Notes under the pieces: model-generated | Told to the model about the DNA's origin: nothing | Database searches by the model: none | The model's input: only the letters and a program-made list of their open reading frames with translations | Translations under genes and position numbers: made by a program | Assembly: GCF_001477625.1 (NCBI RefSeq) | Contig: NZ_CP013692.1 | Coordinates: forward strand, 1,426,001-1,490,000 | From: Paucibacter sp. KCTC 42545 | Lineage (GTDB): Bacteria; Pseudomonadota; Gammaproteobacteria; Burkholderiales; Burkholderiaceae_C | DNA length: 64,000 bases | Direction: 5' to 3' | Shown here: piece by piece, positions 13,581-21,247 of the stretch | Layout of the letters: the number at the start of each line of letters is the position of its first letter | Position numbering within the stretch: the first letter of the stretch is position 1

Positions 13581-13594
13581 TGAAAGCGTTTTCA
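13581..13594. promoter_or_regulatory. LacI-family operator in front of the ABC/GH operon
   Basis: TGAAAGCGTTTTCA is a near-perfect 14-bp palindrome of the LacI/GalR class, with central CG and arms TGAAA/TTTCA. It lies 33 bp before the binding-protein gene and 125 bp before the LacI gene. Two sister sites precede the TonB receptor gene. Confidence 0.82.
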
Positions 13595-13718: not shown

Positions 13719-14763
13719 GTGCCCAGCAAATCGCCCGTCAAGAAAGCGCCTTCAAACCGCACGGAGGGTGTCGTCACCTTGGAGCAGGTGGCCTTGCGAG
13801 CGGGCGTGTCGCCCAGTACGGTCTCACGCATTCTGAATGGCACGGCCATCGTCAGCGAAGCGAAGAAAGCGGCGGTGGATGAAGCCATCCGTGAACTGGG
13901 TTTCCGGCCCAACCCGGTGGCGCGCGGCTTGGCGGGCGGCCGAACCATGAGCGTGGGCGTGGTCACCCAACGCATTGCCAGCCCCTTTTACGGCGAGGCG
14001 CTCAGCGGCATCGAAGTGGCGCTGGAGGCTGCCGGCTATGTGCCGCTTTTTGTTAGCGGCAATTGGAACGAGGTGGATGAGCGTAAGGCGATTGAGTCGC
14101 TGCTCTCGCGCCGGGTCGACGGGGTGATTGTGCTGGCGGGGCGGCTCAGCAATCAGGAGTTGAAGGCGTTGTTGGCCAATCTGCCATCGGTGGTGGGGGC
14201 GGCAGCCCAGCCCCAGCGGCTTGTTCAGTTTCAGTTTTGATAACCGAGCGGGTGCGAAGTTAGCGACTGAGCATCTGATTGATCTGGGCCATCGTCGGAT
14301 TGCCCTGCTGCAGGGCGATTTGATCCATGAAGACGCGATTGAACGGCAAAGCGGCTATCTGGATGCGCTGGCTGCGGCCGGCATTCCGGTGGACCCCCGG
14401 CTGATCGTGCAAAGCGATTACACCGAGGCGGGTGGCATGTTGGCGGTGAGCCGCTTGCTGGAGCGGGAGGTGGGTTTCAGCGCCATCTTCAGCTCCAACG
14501 ACCAGATGGCTTATGGCGCGATGTTGGGCTTGTCGCGCCGCAATTTGCGGGTGCCGGATGATGTGTCGGTGGTGGGCTTTGATGACCTGACCATGTCGCG
14601 CTACACCATGCCGCCTTTGACCACGGTGCGGCAGTCGGTTTACGAGACGGGCACCCAGGCCGCGGCAGCCATGTTGGCCTTGCTGCAGGGCGCAATGCCG
14701 GCGGTCAATCTGGCGGCGCCGGAGTTGGTGATGCGCGAGTCCGCCCGCCGGCTTGCGCGCTAA
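13719..14763 (+). pseudogene. LacI-family transcriptional regulator, interrupted by a +1 frameshift
   Basis: The first frame starts at GTG 13719 (AAGGAGG at 13708-13714) and has the LacI helix-turn-helix TLEQVALRAGVSPSTVSRIL, then the sugar-binding domain as far as NLPSVV (about residue 159). It then runs out of frame and stops at 14240. The rest of the domain continues in another frame as GRQPSPSGLFSFSFDNRAGA through to the stop at 14763. Removing one G from the G5 run at 14195-14199 restores one continuous protein of about 347 residues. It is the obvious regulator of the two divergent glucan operons, whose operators it would bind. Either the gene is newly broken, giving constitutive expression, or the run was miscalled. 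Both halves otherwise look well preserved. Confidence 0.88.
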
Positions 14764-14840: not shown

Positions 14841-14854
14841 TGAAAGCGCTTGCA
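14841..14854. promoter_or_regulatory. LacI-family operator 1 upstream of the TonB receptor gene
   Basis: TGAAAGCGCTTGCA, with the palindrome extending to TTTGAAAGCGCTTGCAAA, lies 84 bp before the receptor ATG. Its centre is 36 bp from the next site, a spacing that would let two dimers bind. Confidence 0.8.
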
Positions 14855-14937: not shown

Positions 14938-17900
14938 ATGAGACACACTCGACCCGTCTGCCGTCTGTCCCTATTGGCCAGTGCGGCCGGCCTTTTGGTG
15001 GCCGGCATGAACGCACAGGCTCAGCAGAGCACAAATGCGGCGCCGGTACCCCCTTCCGCAGCTGCGTCTGCGCCCAAATCGCCAGACGCGCAGCAACTCG
15101 ATACGGTTGTTGTGACCGGCATTCGGCAAAGCTTGGAGACCTCGCTCAGCTTGAAACGCAATGCGCGCGGGGTGGTGGACGGTATCGTGGCCGAGGAAAT
15201 CGGCAAGTTCCCCGACGCCAACTTGGCCGAGTCCATGCAGCGCATTGCCGGCGTGTCCATTGACCGCAGCAATGGCGAAGGCTCCAAGGTGACGGTGCGT
15301 GGCGTGGGCCCCGACTTCAATCTCGTGCTGCTCAACGGCCGCCAGATGCCGGCCTCCAGCCTGGGCGCTACCTTTGCTTCGAACTCTCGCTCTTTTGACT
15401 TCGCCAATCTGGCCTCCGAAGGCATTGCTGCCCTGGAGGTCTACAAGACCAGCCGAGCCGATGCACCGACCGGCGGCATTGGCGCCACCATCAATATCAA
15501 GACCGCGCGTCCGCTGGACAACCCCAAACTGGTCGCCAGCATTGGCGCCAAGTTGGTTAGCGATGAATCGAACAAGCGTTTGCCTGACTCGATGAAGGGC
15601 ACGCAGATCACGCCCGAAGTCTCGGGCATCTACAGCAATGTGTTTGCCGACGGCACCTTTGGTATCGCCTTGGTGGGCAGCTACCAAAAGCGTAATGGCG
15701 GCTACAACCAGGCGGCGGTGGATGCCGGCTGGCGCACCTTCAAGGGCGATGAGCAGAACTGGGGCACCATCCCGCTGCCGGGCCAGGCGGGTGCAGACAA
15801 GATCACCAATCGCCCCAAGCCCACCGATCTGTATGTGGTGCCACAAGAGCTGCGTTACAGCTTGAACGCTTTTGAGCGCACCCGCACCAATGGTCAGCTG
15901 GTCTTGCAGTTCCGCCCCATTAAGGATCTGACGGCCACCCTGGATCACACCTACTCGGAAAACAAGATCCACTCCAAGCGCGCCGAGTTGTCGGCCTGGT
16001 TCAATTTCGGCCCATCGTCCTCCAGCTGGACCAATGGCCCGATCGCCACGCCGACGAATTACACCGAGACCTATCCGGTCACAGGCCCCGCCGACGTGGC
16101 CATGGCCGGCAGCATCTACGGCACCAAGAACACCAACCAATCGACGGGCTTGAACGTGGCTTGGAAGGCCTCGAACACCCTGTCCTTTGACCTTGACGTC
16201 CATCACTCCACCGCCACATCGGCCGCGGATAGCCCTTACGGTAGCAACTCGACCCTGGGCGTGTCGATGCAGAACCGGGCTTTTGCCACGGCCGACTTCT
16301 CGCAGAAGTTCCCGATCCTGAGCATTGGCCTGCACGGTGATCCAGCGACCGCGCCCAGCCTGATGCAGGTGACCGGCTCGTCTTTCCGCAACAGCTATAT
16401 GCGCAACGAGATCGACCAGGCGCAGCTCAAGGGCAAGTACGTCTTGTCTGAGAGTTCGGGTCTGGACTTCGGCGTGGGCCTCACCAAGGTGAAGAACCGC
16501 ACGGCTTACGCCAATGTGCAGCAAGACGATTGGGGTGGCCACAACAAGCCCTCCGACTATGACGACGGGCTGTGGAAGCCGGCCAAGCTGCAGGACTACT
16601 TTGCCCATTCCTTTGGTGCCGCCAACGGCGCCGGCTTGTTCAATAACTTCTATTTGTGGGACTTTGAGGCGGTGCGCGCGGCAGCGATCAAGGCCGACAA
16701 GAGCGACAAGTGGTTTGTACCCTCGTCGGACTTCACCGACGACCGCCGCACGCAAGAGAAATCCACTAACGCCTTCGTCCAGTATTACAAGGACTGGGAG
16801 TGGGGCGTGCCGATGAATGTGGCCATGGGTGTGCGCTATGAGCGCACCACGGTGGATTCACAGGCCTTGGTGCCCATCGTCACGGGCATCAACTGGGTGA
16901 GCGCGAATGAGTTTGCGCTGGTCAAGGGCAAATCAGACTTCACCTCGCTCTCAGGCAGCTATAACTACTACCTGCCCAGCATCGACTACGAGGCAGAGCT
17001 GAGCGACAAGCTCAAGCTGCGGGCCAGCTATGGCGAGACCATTGGCCGCCCGGGTTGGGGGGCGATTCAGGGTGGCGTGACCTTGTCGGACTTCCGTGTC
17101 AATGGCGGCTCGGGCAGCCAAGGCAATCCGGCCTTGAAGCCGCTGCTGTCGAAGAACTTTGACCTCTCGGCCGAGTTCTACTACGCCAAGGCCAGCTATG
17201 CGTCGCTGGGTCTGTTCAAAAAGAACATCAGCAATTTCATTGGTTCAAGCTCGCTGCAGTCCAAGCCGGCTGGTTTGACTACGCCGATCAACGGCCCGCT
17301 CTACACCGAAGCGGTGGCGAAGAACTGCGCGACCAAGGATGCGGTTTGCATTCGCAACTACATCTTGAACACCTATAACGGCACGCGTGGTGTGGTGCGC
17401 ACCGGCTTCGATGGCACCGGCAATCCCGTTGGCACCATTGCGGGTCAAGCGGGTGATCCGGAAGCCGTGTTCACCATCAGTGCGCCCAGCAATCAGCGCA
17501 GTGATCACATCAAGGGCGTGGAGTTCAATGTCCAGCACGCCTTCGGCAGCAGCGGCTTTGGTGTGGCCGCCAACTACACCTTGGTGAAGTCGGGCCTGAA
17601 GTACGACAACAGCAATCTGACCGAGCAGAACGCGCTCTTAGGTCTGGGCAACTCGGCCAACTTGGTGGGCTTCTTTGAGAATGCCAACTTCAGCGTTCGC
17701 GCCGCTTACAACTGGCGCGATGAGTTCCTGAGCAGCACCACGGCGGATGTGTTCGGCTCCGCAGGCCCGGCTTACACCGACGCCTACGGTCAGTGGGACC
17801 TCAGCCTGGGTTATAAGTTCAACAAGAACCTGAGTTTGAACTTCGAGGCGCTCAATCTGAACGACGGTCTCCAGCGCGTCCACGGTCGCGCCAAGGAAGA

Positions 17901-17961
17901 GACGCTGTACTCGACCCAAACGGGCCGTCGCTACAGCTTGAACGCGCGCTACACCTTCTGA
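14938..17961 (+). CDS. TonB-dependent receptor for (oligo)saccharide uptake
   Basis: A 1007-residue outer-membrane receptor. A signal peptide ends near MNAQAQQ; a TonB-box-like segment DTVVVTGIRQSLE leads into the plug domain (to about residue 190, with NLAESMQRIAGVSIDR and VRGVGPDFNLVLLNGR). The rest is the beta-barrel, closing with SLNARYTF and a terminal Phe as expected for outer-membrane insertion. The form with IRQSLETSLSLKR is the large class that in Caulobacter, Xanthomonas and Alteromonas relatives imports polysaccharide fragments. Two LacI operators precede it and it heads an operon with SapC, cupin-like and halogenase-like genes. Substrate is inferred to be a beta-glucan fragment. 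Confidence 0.93.
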   Translation: MRHTRPVCRLSLLASAAGLLVAGMNAQAQQSTNAAPVPPSAAASAPKSPDAQQLDTVVVTGIRQSLETSLSLKRNARGVVDGIVAEEIGKFPDANLAESMQRIAGVSIDRSNGEGSKVTVRGVGPDFNLVLLNGRQMPASSLGATFASNSRSFDFANLASEGIAALEVYKTSRADAPTGGIGATINIKTARPLDNPKLVASIGAKLVSDESNKRLPDSMKGTQITPEVSGIYSNVFADGTFGIALVGSYQKRNGGYNQAAVDAGWRTFKGDEQNWGTIPLPGQAGADKITNRPKPTDLYVVPQELRYSLNAFERTRTNGQLVLQFRPIKDLTATLDHTYSENKIHSKRAELSAWFNFGPSSSSWTNGPIATPTNYTETYPVTGPADVAMAGSIYGTKNTNQSTGLNVAWKASNTLSFDLDVHHSTATSAADSPYGSNSTLGVSMQNRAFATADFSQKFPILSIGLHGDPATAPSLMQVTGSSFRNSYMRNEIDQAQLKGKYVLSESSGLDFGVGLTKVKNRTAYANVQQDDWGGHNKPSDYDDGLWKPAKLQDYFAHSFGAANGAGLFNNFYLWDFEAVRAAAIKADKSDKWFVPSSDFTDDRRTQEKSTNAFVQYYKDWEWGVPMNVAMGVRYERTTVDSQALVPIVTGINWVSANEFALVKGKSDFTSLSGSYNYYLPSIDYEAELSDKLKLRASYGETIGRPGWGAIQGGVTLSDFRVNGGSGSQGNPALKPLLSKNFDLSAEFYYAKASYASLGLFKKNISNFIGSSSLQSKPAGLTTPINGPLYTEAVAKNCATKDAVCIRNYILNTYNGTRGVVRTGFDGTGNPVGTIAGQAGDPEAVFTISAPSNQRSDHIKGVEFNVQHAFGSSGFGVAANYTLVKSGLKYDNSNLTEQNALLGLGNSANLVGFFENANFSVRAAYNWRDEFLSSTTADVFGSAGPAYTDAYGQWDLSLGYKFNKNLSLNFEALNLNDGLQRVHGRAKEETLYSTQTGRRYSLNARYTF

Positions 17962-17977
17962 CCGACGAGACGACCCG

Positions 17978-18679
17978 ATGCGTGCTGCTCTGCTTGATAA
18001 CGTGACCCACCGGGATCTGCGCCTGCAGACCCGGCTGGATGCCGCTTGGGGTGATGCTGTGAGTGCCGTGCCCACGGTGCCCGCAGAGTTCAAGCAGATG
18101 CAGGCGCATTTCCCTATCGTGTTCCAGCAAAGCGGCGACGCCAGCCGCTTTCAGCCGGTGGCCTTGCTCGGTTTGCTGGAATCGCGCAGCAGCTTTTTGG
18201 GGCCGCGCGGCTGGGAGGCCGGCCATTTACCTTGGGCCCTGGAGCGCCAGCCCTTGCTGGTGGGTCGTGATGGCGAGGGCTGGGTCGTCCATATTGATTT
18301 GGACAGCCCGCGCCTGAGCTTGAGCGAAGGCGCGCCACTTTTTCTAGCCAATGGCGGGCAGTCGCCGCTGTTGGAGCGCCGGGTCTCGGTGCTGCAGGCC
18401 TTGCACGAAGGCATGCAGACCTTGCCCGACTTCATTGATGCACTCTTGCAGTACCAACTGCTGGAGCCCATGAGCTTGGACATCGAGCAAGCTGACGGCT
18501 CGGTGCGCCGTGTGGCCGGCTATTACGTCATCGACGAAGAGCGCCTCGCGGCCTTGCCGGGCACGGCGGTGGCTGCGCTGCACGAGGCGGGGCACTGGTT
18601 TGCCATTGCCATGGCTGTTGCCTCGTTGGCAAGGATTCCAGCCTTGCTTGAGCGCGAACAGCGGCTGGCTCTGGCTTGA
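17978..18679 (+). CDS. SapC family protein
   Basis: A 233-residue protein of the SapC family (named after a Campylobacter surface-array gene, but with no firm function in these bacteria). Recognisable parts are FKQMQAHFPIVFQ, RSSFLGPRGWEAGHLPWAL, the LFLANGGQSP segment and the C-terminal GYYVIDEERLAAL. No signal peptide is present, so it is probably cytoplasmic. It starts 16 bp after the receptor stop and is followed at 10 bp by the cupin-like gene. Genes of this family recur beside TonB receptors, cupin-like proteins and tryptophan-halogenase-like proteins, so a role in handling the imported glycan or its regulation is possible. Confidence 0.87.
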   Translation: MRAALLDNVTHRDLRLQTRLDAAWGDAVSAVPTVPAEFKQMQAHFPIVFQQSGDASRFQPVALLGLLESRSSFLGPRGWEAGHLPWALERQPLLVGRDGEGWVVHIDLDSPRLSLSEGAPLFLANGGQSPLLERRVSVLQALHEGMQTLPDFIDALLQYQLLEPMSLDIEQADGSVRRVAGYYVIDEERLAALPGTAVAALHEAGHWFAIAMAVASLARIPALLEREQRLALA

Positions 18680-18689
18680 GATTGCACTC

Positions 18690-19706
18690 ATGCAAGCCCT
18701 CAGGGAATTCAAGGTCGATCAAGCCGACCAGGTGCCGCCGCAGCTGCTCGCCATGGACGAGCCCTGTGTGCTGCGCGGCTTGGTCTCGCATTGGCCTCTG
18801 GTGCAAGCCTGCGAGCAGGCGGGCGGAGATGCTTCGGTAGCGGCAGCCGCTTGCCTGAAGTCGTACTGGCGCGATGCCACCGTTGGCGTGTTCCGCATGG
18901 CGCCGTCGACCCAGGGGCGCATTGCCTATAACGAAGATTTCAGCGGCTTCAATTTCAGCCGCGAGTTCCTGCGCTTTGATCAGTTGCTGGACCAGTTGCT
19001 GGCCTGCCGCGAGCAAAGCCCTTCGCCCTATCTGTACATGGGCTCGACCACGGTGGACACCTGCCTGCCTGGTTTTCGCTCTAGCCACGCGCTGCAGCTG
19101 GACTCGCCAGAAGAGGCCTTGGTGAGCTTGTGGATGGGCAACCAGATCACGGTGCCGGCGCATCAGGACTGGCCCTCTAACATCGCCTGCTGTGTGGCCG
19201 GTCGGCGGCGTTTCACCTTGTTCCCGCCCGACGCGGTGGGCGATTTGTACGTGGGTCCGCTGGACCTGACGCCGGCCGGTCAGCCCATCAGCCTGGCCGA
19301 TGCATCCAAGCCTGATTTGCAGCGCTTCCCACGTTTTGCCCAAGCCCTGGCGCGGGCCCAGGTGGCGGAGTTGGCGCCCGGCGATGCGATCTACATACCC
19401 AGCCTGTGGTGGCATCAGGTCGAGGGTTTGGATGGGCTCAATGCCCTGGTCAATTATTGGTGGCGTCGCAGCCCCGCGTGGGCAGATTCGCCCAACACGG
19501 CGCTGTGGTTGGCCTTGGCCACACTGCGTGATTTACCGCCGGCCGAGCGGCAGGCTTGGCGCGCGCTCTTTGATCACTATGTGTTTAAGGCCGATGCCAG
19601 CACCGCCGCGCATATCCCTGCCCAAGCGCGCGGCCTGCTCGCGCCCTTTGACGAAACCGCCATGCGCCGCATGCGTGCATGGCTGATGAAAAAACTCAAT
19701 CGATAA
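18690..19706 (+). CDS. Cupin-like (JmjC/cupin_8) domain protein
   Basis: A 338-residue protein with the JmjC-like cupin fold of Fe(II)/2-oxoglutarate oxygenases. Evidence: the N-terminal DEPCVLRGLVSHWPLVQ, then NQITVPAHQDWPSNIACCV, GRRRFTLFPPD and PGDAIYIPSLWWHQVEGLDG. The metal-site candidates are His and Asp of the HQD motif (HxD would be canonical) and the distal His in WWHQVE. I start at the ATG at 18690, which lies 8 bp after the SapC stop; longer frames overlap SapC. Substrate unknown. It sits between SapC and the halogenase-like gene, a recurrent order in TonB-receptor loci. Confidence 0.87.
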   Translation: MQALREFKVDQADQVPPQLLAMDEPCVLRGLVSHWPLVQACEQAGGDASVAAAACLKSYWRDATVGVFRMAPSTQGRIAYNEDFSGFNFSREFLRFDQLLDQLLACREQSPSPYLYMGSTTVDTCLPGFRSSHALQLDSPEEALVSLWMGNQITVPAHQDWPSNIACCVAGRRRFTLFPPDAVGDLYVGPLDLTPAGQPISLADASKPDLQRFPRFAQALARAQVAELAPGDAIYIPSLWWHQVEGLDGLNALVNYWWRRSPAWADSPNTALWLALATLRDLPPAERQAWRALFDHYVFKADASTAAHIPAQARGLLAPFDETAMRRMRAWLMKKLNR

Positions 19707-19714
19707 GGCTGCAA

Positions 19715-21247
19715 ATGAACGTTCAAGCTTTTCCGACCGAGAGTGCCCGCAGCAGCGCGTCAGCGGTGCGCCGCGTCGTCATCGCCGGTGGCGGCACCGC
19801 CGGCTGGATGGTGGCTGCCCTGATGGGCAAGCTGATGGGCAAGCAGCTCGAGATCCGCCTGGTGGAGTCCGATGAGATTGGCACCGTCGGCGTCGGCGAG
19901 GCCACCATTCCCGCCTTGCATATGTTCCACGAACTGCTGGGCATCAAAGAGGCTGAATTCATGGCCGCCACCCAGGCCACCTTCAAGCTGGGCATCAAGT
20001 TCGAAGGCTGGAAGGCGCCCGGCGAGGACTACATCCACTCCTTCGGCTTGACCGGCCAAGATCATTGGAGTGCTGGCTTCCAGCACTTCTGGCTGAAAGG
20101 CCGGCAGCGCGGCTTGGCACAGCGCTACGGCGACTATTGCCTGGAGTTGCGCGCCGCCGAAGAGAACCGCTTTGCCCATCTGCCGCAAAACGGCATGAAC
20201 TACGCCTACCACCTCGATGCCACGCGTTATGCGCGTTACCTGCGCGGCATTGCCGAGGCGCATGGGGTGCAGCGCATCGAGGGCAAGATCACCGAGGTGC
20301 TGCGCGTCACGCCCGACGGCGACTTGAGCGCGCTGCGCCTGGGCGATGGCGCCCTGGTGGCAGGCGACTTGTTCATCGACTGCACCGGCTTTCGTGCGCT
20401 CTTGCTGGGCGAGACCCTGGGTGTGCCGTATGAGGATTGGACCCACTGGCTGCCCTGCGACCGTGCCGTAGCGGTGCAGACCGCTTCGGTGCGCGAGGCC
20501 CCGCCTTACACCCGCTCTATCGCGCACCCGTTTGGCTGGCAATGGCGCATTCCGCTGCAGCACCGGGTGGGCAATGGCCTGGTCTACAGCAGCCGCGAGC
20601 TGTCCGATGCTGACGCGCCTGAGGTCTTGACCCGCCATGTTGAAGGCGAGCTTTTGATGAAGCCGCGCCTGCTGCGCTTCATACCGGGCCAGCGCCGCGA
20701 GGTGTGGAATCGCAATTGCATCGCGGTGGGCCTGTCCAGCGGTTTCATCGAACCGCTGGAGTCCACCAGCATCCACCTGATCCAGCGCGCGGCGATCCGC
20801 TTGATGCGCTTGTTCCCTGCCGGTGGTGTGCGTGAGGTGGACCGGGTCGAGTTCAACCGCCAGACGCAGGATGACCTTGAGCACATCCGCGACTTCATCA
20901 TCCTGCACTATCACGTGACCGAGCGGGACGACTCTGATTTGTGGCGCCATGTGCGCACGATGGCCGTGCCCGAGACACTGCGCCACCGGATCGAGTTGTT
21001 CACCGAAACGGCGCGGGTGTTCCGTCCGCTGGACGAGTTGTTCGCCGAAAACTCCTGGATCCAGGTGATGCTGGGGCAGGGCATCAGCCCGCGCCATCAC
21101 CATCCGGTGGCTGACTTGATGGGCGACGCGGAGTTGCAGCAGTTCCTGGAGCACATCCGCCGCCAGGTCTCGCAGCGCCTGGCCACCTTGCCGCCCCATG
21201 CCGCCTATGTGGAGCGCTTGTGTGCGCCTTACCGTGCCGCGGCCTGA
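19715..21247 (+). CDS. Tryptophan-halogenase-family flavoprotein
   Basis: A 510-residue flavin-dependent halogenase-like protein. The FAD-binding VVIAGGGTAGW is at residues 21-31, GVGEATIP follows, the catalytic-lysine region reads KLGIKFEGW, and the halogenase signature WxWxIP is present as GWQWRIP near residue 270. All motifs needed for chemistry are kept. Start at the ATG at 19715, 8 bp after the cupin gene; it is the last gene of the operon, followed by a terminator. No biosynthetic cluster surrounds it; instead it belongs to a glycan-uptake operon, where the natural substrate of such proteins is unknown. Confidence 0.92.
   Translation: MNVQAFPTESARSSASAVRRVVIAGGGTAGWMVAALMGKLMGKQLEIRLVESDEIGTVGVGEATIPALHMFHELLGIKEAEFMAATQATFKLGIKFEGWKAPGEDYIHSFGLTGQDHWSAGFQHFWLKGRQRGLAQRYGDYCLELRAAEENRFAHLPQNGMNYAYHLDATRYARYLRGIAEAHGVQRIEGKITEVLRVTPDGDLSALRLGDGALVAGDLFIDCTGFRALLLGETLGVPYEDWTHWLPCDRAVAVQTASVREAPPYTRSIAHPFGWQWRIPLQHRVGNGLVYSSRELSDADAPEVLTRHVEGELLMKPRLLRFIPGQRREVWNRNCIAVGLSSGFIEPLESTSIHLIQRAAIRLMRLFPAGGVREVDRVEFNRQTQDDLEHIRDFIILHYHVTERDDSDLWRHVRTMAVPETLRHRIELFTETARVFRPLDELFAENSWIQVMLGQGISPRHHHPVADLMGDAELQQFLEHIRRQVSQRLATLPPHAAYVERLCAPYRAAA

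Follow-up and report, generated by a model that had tools for sequence, protein, structure and literature searches.

A SapC, cupin and halogenase cassette behind a TonB-dependent receptor gene in Paucibacter sp. KCTC 42545, and the receptor as its possible target

The genome of Paucibacter sp. KCTC 42545 consists of one contig of 5.17 Mb, of which a stretch of 64,000 nt (NZ_CP013692.1, positions 1,426,001 to 1,490,000 of the forward strand) was analysed. This stretch is called the window, and positions are counted from its first base. The subject of this study is a group of four + strand genes at 14938-21247, which by the reading of open reading frames are intact and separated by gaps of 16, 10 and 8 bases. 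They encode a TonB-dependent receptor, a SapC protein, a cupin-like protein and a flavin-dependent halogenase (FDH). The genes and three codons of interest are as follows:

14938-17961, + strand: TonB-dependent receptor, TIGR01782 (profile match, AlphaFold2 (AF2) model)
17978-18679, + strand: SapC (PF07277) of the module subfamily (profile match, predicted structure)
18690-19706, + strand: Cupin_8 / JmjC-type putative Fe(II)/2-oxoglutarate (2OG) oxygenase with His158, Asp160 and His242 (profile match, motif)
19715-21247, + strand: flavin-dependent halogenase, FDH2 of the module, Xcc4156/BrvH type (profile match, alignment)
15760-15762, + strand: codon of receptor Trp275, candidate site (alignments, AF2 model)
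19985-19987, + strand: codon of the catalytic Lys of the halogenase (alignment)
20759-20761, + strand: codon of the catalytic Glu of the halogenase (alignment)

All four family assignments exceed the curated cut-offs, with 625 bits for TIGR01782, 195 for SapC, 223 for Cupin_8 and 614 for Trp_halogenase. Together with the short gaps, these scores confirm the tightly packed set of four families given in a preliminary description of this DNA. The receptor belongs to TIGR01782 by its score and by its plug and barrel, and the fold match agrees. Likewise, motif reading and alignment bear out the intact state described for the halogenase: the GxGxxG motif for flavin adenine dinucleotide, the catalytic Lys and Glu, and WQWRIP as the WxWxIP motif are all present, as in a Variant A (PF04820) enzyme. 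The nearest named relative is an uncultured Roseateles with a 97% identical halogenase protein (among the best 80 of 281 relatives).

These relatives were collected by a six-word halogenase scan of species genomes, which found 281, and the best 80 were kept; the set is biased towards close relatives. Sixty-nine of the 80 FDH-seeded loci have enough upstream sequence and 11 end at contig edges, the latter including L035, which has the window's form, and L054. A receptor gene lies upstream on the same strand in 69 of 69 loci. The four-gene form of the window is real, as described before, but it is not the usual one: in 59/69 loci the order is receptor-FDH1-SapC-Cupin_8-FDH2, a five-gene operon with an extra halogenase gene (FDH1) directly after the receptor gene. 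FDH1 is missing, as in the window, in 6/69 loci, the cupin gene in 2/69, and FDH1 together with SapC in 2/69; the loci L064 and L071 are without both SapC and FDH1 and retain cupin and FDH2. FDH1 and FDH2 are distinct subfamilies, mostly with GVGEGTWP and WxWDIG in FDH1 and with GVGEATIP and WxWRIP in FDH2. The gene set is found next to TonB receptors in Burkholderiales, in Lysobacter/Luteimonas-type and in Bowmanella genomes. In four loci (L089, L128, L134, L242) FDH2 is followed by a DUF6445 protein with HxD and later His residues, which makes a second Fe(II) oxygenase plausible.

Further halogenase and receptor loci show other arrangements. The second halogenase locus of the source genome (L010, 10279-16821) comprises an HGSNAT/NagX-like gene, a halogenase gene and a DUF6445 gene with a convergent TIGR01782 receptor gene; our guess is that it serves the use of N-acetylglucosamine. 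The third halogenase gene of this genome (L008, 7857-11742) directly follows what appear by eye to be two-component genes and has a receptor gene 6.4 kb away. At L206, a Cupin_8 gene comes next after a TIGR01782 receptor gene, with no halogenase within the 1.5 kb examined.

The recurrence near TonB receptors, which the preliminary description had claimed, is confirmed and goes beyond chance. Linkage was counted for halogenases of at least 150 bits and TIGR01782 receptors over the cut-off, with a limit of 8 kb; rows below 150 bits and the one halogenase-like gene of the genome G143 were left out. The 17 genomes used all bear SapC, and for large genomes some of the receptor candidates were scored, so that the counts are no census. 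In these genomes, 79 of 86 halogenases lie within 8 kb of a receptor, against 5.1 expected; 31 of them directly follow the receptor gene on its own strand. Seven of the genomes, namely the source genome and six picked for the module, contribute 29/32 halogenases near a receptor (1.67 expected; 14 immediately downstream), and ten genomes picked for SapC plus halogenases, not for the module, contribute 50/54 (3.4 expected; 17 immediately downstream). One genome (G186) has 17 halogenase genes of at least 150 bits, nearly all near receptors. From the side of the receptors, 56 of 150 TIGR01782 genes are linked to a halogenase. In addition, 300 genomes from the order of the source genome (taken as Burkholderiales) were examined, with two receptor candidates scored per genome and positions compared by eye. 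Six of these genomes have a module-clade receptor at E 1e-100, in seven copies; six of the seven lie beside a halogenase, and every halogenase with at least 65% identity in this draw, six in all, is at one of these places. A receptor tree of 50 rows groups the module receptors in one part of 27 rows (module 22, pair 3, none 2), and simple receptor-halogenase pairs are scattered. The preliminary description had named as contrary evidence genomes with the genes always elsewhere; for the halogenase and the module's SapC subfamily this is not what was found, and the observation is stronger than stated there.

The highest-scoring solved relatives of the halogenase are Xcc4156 (PDB 6y1w, 710 bits), 9luq (529) and BrvH (6frl, 467), with the next at 287.5 bits. 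VirX1 (6qgm), a halogenase from a phage, is also among the matches in this family. An undescribed type of halogenase can thus be set aside: Xcc4156 is closest, BrvH is related, and both are characterised indole brominases. At the two substrate-loop regions (taken from passages of PMC7336383) there is no gap relative to 6y1w, so by sequence alone the loops would be short as in Xcc4156, and the longer loop covering tryptophan in halogenases of free tryptophan (RebH, PrnA type) is absent. The enzyme is accordingly predicted to belong to the open-site subgroup of Xcc4156 and BrvH. As reported in passages of PMC5945002 for BrvH (2018) and of PMC7336383 for Xcc4156 and the Xanthomonas brominases, both enzymes are inactive on free tryptophan, have a solvent-open site with short loops and prefer bromide or use it exclusively; the native substrates are stated as unknown, and the authors propose a larger substrate or a peptide. 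Among the relatives, catalytic Lys and Glu are kept in 70/70 FDH1 and 90/90 FDH2 aligned sequences, in which some genes are counted twice owing to overlapping loci. Among 35 other FDHs aligned, both residues are missing from one gene, which appears as the two rows L155 and L233.

The iron triad HxD..H is kept in all 83 distinct module cupins, including that of the window. The nearest solved relatives, JMJD5 and FIH, hydroxylate proteins, as is indicated in part by the molecule names of the structures. They have HxD..H in common with the window cupin and differ from it at the position of the 2OG-anchoring Lys, for which we take the register of FIH and JMJD5: this position is Arg in 83/83 distinct module cupins. 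Such a conservative exchange may retain 2OG binding. The predicted structure of the window SapC is confident (mean predicted local distance difference test score, pLDDT, 96), and neither Foldseek nor VIA-align found a counterpart in the PDB. While the module's SapC subfamily is linked to the other genes as proposed, the PF07277 family as a whole, present in 104/299 Pseudomonadota genomes (phylum as drawn), is mostly found elsewhere: with one best-scoring copy per genome, SapC lies in the module in 6/40 loci. The other 34 of the 40 loci L121-L160 have neighbours in mixed orientation. At L155, a halogenase-like gene with catalytic Lys and Glu replaced lies about 3.5 kb from SapC.

The reading that we prefer, with a confidence somewhat short of even, is that the enzymes of the cassette act on the receptor encoded with them and modify it oxidatively before it is exported. 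The halogenase would meet the receptor in the cytoplasm soon after its synthesis and, using bromide, O2 and FADH2 from a reductase encoded elsewhere, would halogenate or oxidise an aromatic side chain to a bromo- or hydroxy-residue. The cupin would hydroxylate another receptor residue, and SapC would help to hold or present the unfolded receptor. After export the modified receptor would fold, possibly with the modified residue in an outer loop, where the mark might tune glycan binding or protect the receptor. A receptor target is favoured by the upstream receptor gene at 69/69 loci, by the 79/86 linkage, by the six of seven module-clade copies and by the lack of room for a separate precursor peptide between the window's genes, which are only 8-16 bases apart. 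These gaps hold no separate precursor gene as in a halogenase cluster for ribosomally synthesised and post-translationally modified peptides, and the receptor is the sole non-enzyme product of the operon besides SapC. The same target is favoured by the kept catalytic residues, the open site of Xcc4156 and the peptide substrate proposed for it, as well as by the protein-hydroxylating relatives of the cupin, the precedent of QhpG and the conservation of Trp275 in the receptors.

The AF2 model, with a mean pLDDT of 81.7, puts Trp275 of the receptor into the loop 261-303, which the alternation of long and short turns would place outside. This Trp is present in 75/76 module receptors (L038, L040 and L054 counted as module) and is replaced by Ser or Asn in the three module-clade receptors of the same set that have no SapC (L195, L064, L071). 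Among the columns that FDH1-bearing receptors conserve to at least 97%, L064 deviates in only three, that of Trp275 included; the other two deviations also occur in L042, which retains SapC and Trp275. A wider comparison of 51 halogenase-linked with 65 unlinked receptors gave a raw excess for Trp653 (22 vs 1) and Trp275 (16 vs 0, with module rows making up 12 of the 16). These two residues may be regarded as candidate targets.

Several results weigh against a mark on the receptor. Trp275 is absent from L080 despite a full module; in a further sample it was present in 10/13 receptors flanked by SapC or FDH (L260, L266 and L267 being without it) and in one of four sampled receptors with no partner in view. 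Since L064 and L071 keep cupin and FDH2 without Trp275, this residue is unlikely to be the target of FDH2. When kinship was controlled by pairs, no Trp column was significant (Trp275 2:0, Trp653 2:0); independent pairs gave 6:4 for Trp265, 4:4 for Trp926, 2:5 for Trp354 and 5:5 for any Trp in the Trp275 loop, and Trp content was alike in paired and unpaired receptors (p 0.38). In L054 the receptor gene and FDH1 are on the strand opposite to FDH2. Furthermore, 94/150 TIGR01782 receptors are farther than 8 kb from any halogenase; therefore, the family as such needs none. The modification linked to the receptor, one of the two possibilities in the preliminary description, fits the evidence, but no residue passed the test corrected for relatedness. 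We regard a modified receptor as plausible.

The surroundings of the operon contain the following regulatory features and a downstream neighbour:

13581-13594: third operator-like site with one mismatch, by divergent ABC-transporter (ATP-binding cassette) and glycosidase genes; counterparts in L011 and L014
13719-14763, + strand: lacI-family regulator gene in two overlapping frames, 13719-14240 and 14221-14763 (profile match)
14841-14854, strand not applicable: LacI-type operator, exact match to TGAAAGCGCTTNCA (motif search); kept in L011 and L014
14877-14890, strand not applicable: second LacI-type operator, a perfect palindrome ahead of the receptor gene; kept in L011 and L014
21311-22279, + strand: glucokinase gene, next downstream (profile match); also next in L011, L012, L013 and L014

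The operator motif, with up to two mismatches, has 10 matches in the window against 2.3 expected (palindromes counted on both strands), a number equalled in 1 of 100 shuffles. The glucokinase gene possibly belongs to the same regulon as the receptor operon. Unlike the split gene of the window, lacI of the close relative L011 is a single frame of 369 aa (L011 3937-5043), and the split is either a natural loss or a sequencing error. The setting in glycan uptake was recognised correctly in the preliminary description: the neighbourhood is of the glucan type, with genes for LacI, the glycoside hydrolases (GH) GH16, GH17, GH3 and GH1, and glucokinase nearby. A set of 93 flanking proteins, drawn from 119 at every second long locus, was assigned to Pfam families. 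Within the 25 most frequent of the 73 families, LacI occurred nine times, GH3 and GH16 four times each, GH17 three times, and two families of ABC binding proteins twice each. These families suggest that the glycan is a beta-glucan, either beta-1,3-linked or mixed. EF-G, with four occurrences, seems to be a neighbour by chance.

In a rival explanation the cassette tailors small molecules: an aromatic compound such as indole, a phenol or a hydroxycinnamate, taken up along with the glycan or produced in its presence, would be halogenated or hydroxylated. Free indole is brominated by BrvH (passages of PMC5945002), and Xcc4156 acts on indole and its derivatives (passages of PMC7336383); moreover, the occurrence of halogenases beside many different TIGR01782 receptors would allow for a shared class of imported chemicals. 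However, BrvH has low activity on indole and its authors question whether this is the natural substrate, the 25 commonest families of the flanking proteins include none for aromatic degradation, and a JmjC-type protein and SapC beside the receptor would be left without a reason. The imported aromatic compound, the other possibility of the preliminary description, is weakly disfavoured by the flanking families, and overall we consider small-molecule tailoring rather unlikely. Another protein as target, be it SapC itself, a co-exported envelope protein or the TonB/ExbB machinery, appears more doubtful still. Among the matches listed for 27 genomes, 21 of 47 SapC copies have a halogenase gene no more than 2.5 kb away, in every case on their own strand, which speaks for such a target, as do the joint absence of SapC and FDH1 from L064 and L071 and a SapC model without a PDB match that would mark an enzyme. 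On the other hand, 24 of the 27 genomes have, among these matches, a SapC copy away from any halogenase, and the SapC alignment contains no invariant or nearly invariant Trp.

Finally, the enzymes could serve general defence or oxidant chemistry and be merely co-regulated with sugar receptors. The shared LacI-type operators make co-regulation plausible, but gene order is conserved across distant genomes and module receptors are almost wholly confined to one part of the receptor tree, both of which is more than loose co-regulation requires; we regard this explanation as very improbable. 

TonB receptors of this kind can serve phages, which lends interest to phage-borne halogenases. In a wider and bolder version of the receptor reading, bacteria would brominate, and also hydroxylate, their TonB sugar receptors after translation, halogenases of the BrvH/Xcc4156 type would be receptor-specific modifiers, SapC would be a dedicated presenter, and a mark in an outer loop would alter the binding of ligands or the way in which phages and toxins that exploit these receptors recognise them; this version seems to us possible, with the odds against it.

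Gene order in any case offers a concrete and testable substrate candidate for brominases of the BrvH/Xcc4156 type, namely the receptor from the same operon. If true, outer-membrane transporters would carry a halogenation or oxidation mark made alongside sugar uptake, and the 17 halogenase genes of G186 would have a reason. The parts of the cassette are of known kinds, and the coupling of receptor, halogenase and SapC was not found described in the open-access papers searched (subscription literature lay outside the search). In the open PubMed Central (PMC) literature, no paper brought together SapC and halogenase, and the combination of halogenase and TonB-dependent gave 11 papers; in passages of one of these, TonB receptors lie near a peptide synthetase and halogenases are merely cited. 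'TonB' was not found in passages of PMC8269204, a term search of PMC6644159 gave no match, and a full-text term search of the BrvH and Xcc4156 papers (PMC5945002, PMC7336383) found neither 'TonB' nor 'SapC'.

Among known systems, the CUT (carbohydrate utilization) loci of Xanthomonas resemble the locus in gene content: as generally known and in part described in passages on them, they bring together a TonB receptor, a regulator, sugar enzymes and a transporter. They differ in that the terms 'halogenase', 'SapC' and 'cupin' are absent from the text of the CUT paper. With regard to chemistry, MibH (5uao according to passages of PMC7336383) belongs to the same superfamily, has an open site and acts on a peptide Trp; it is remote (192.9 bits) and has a lantibiotic substrate, while the window locus has no precursor peptide gene. 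QhpG has a halogenase-like fold and dihydroxylates a Trp in a protein that its own operon encodes (passages of PMC7876137), with a weak sequence match to the window halogenase of 21.9 bits at a cut-off of 240. The closest counterparts are Xcc4156 (6y1w) and BrvH (6frl), which match the window halogenase over nearly the full length and share its motifs. The gene of BrvH, too, has a second FDH gene just upstream (passages of PMC5945002).

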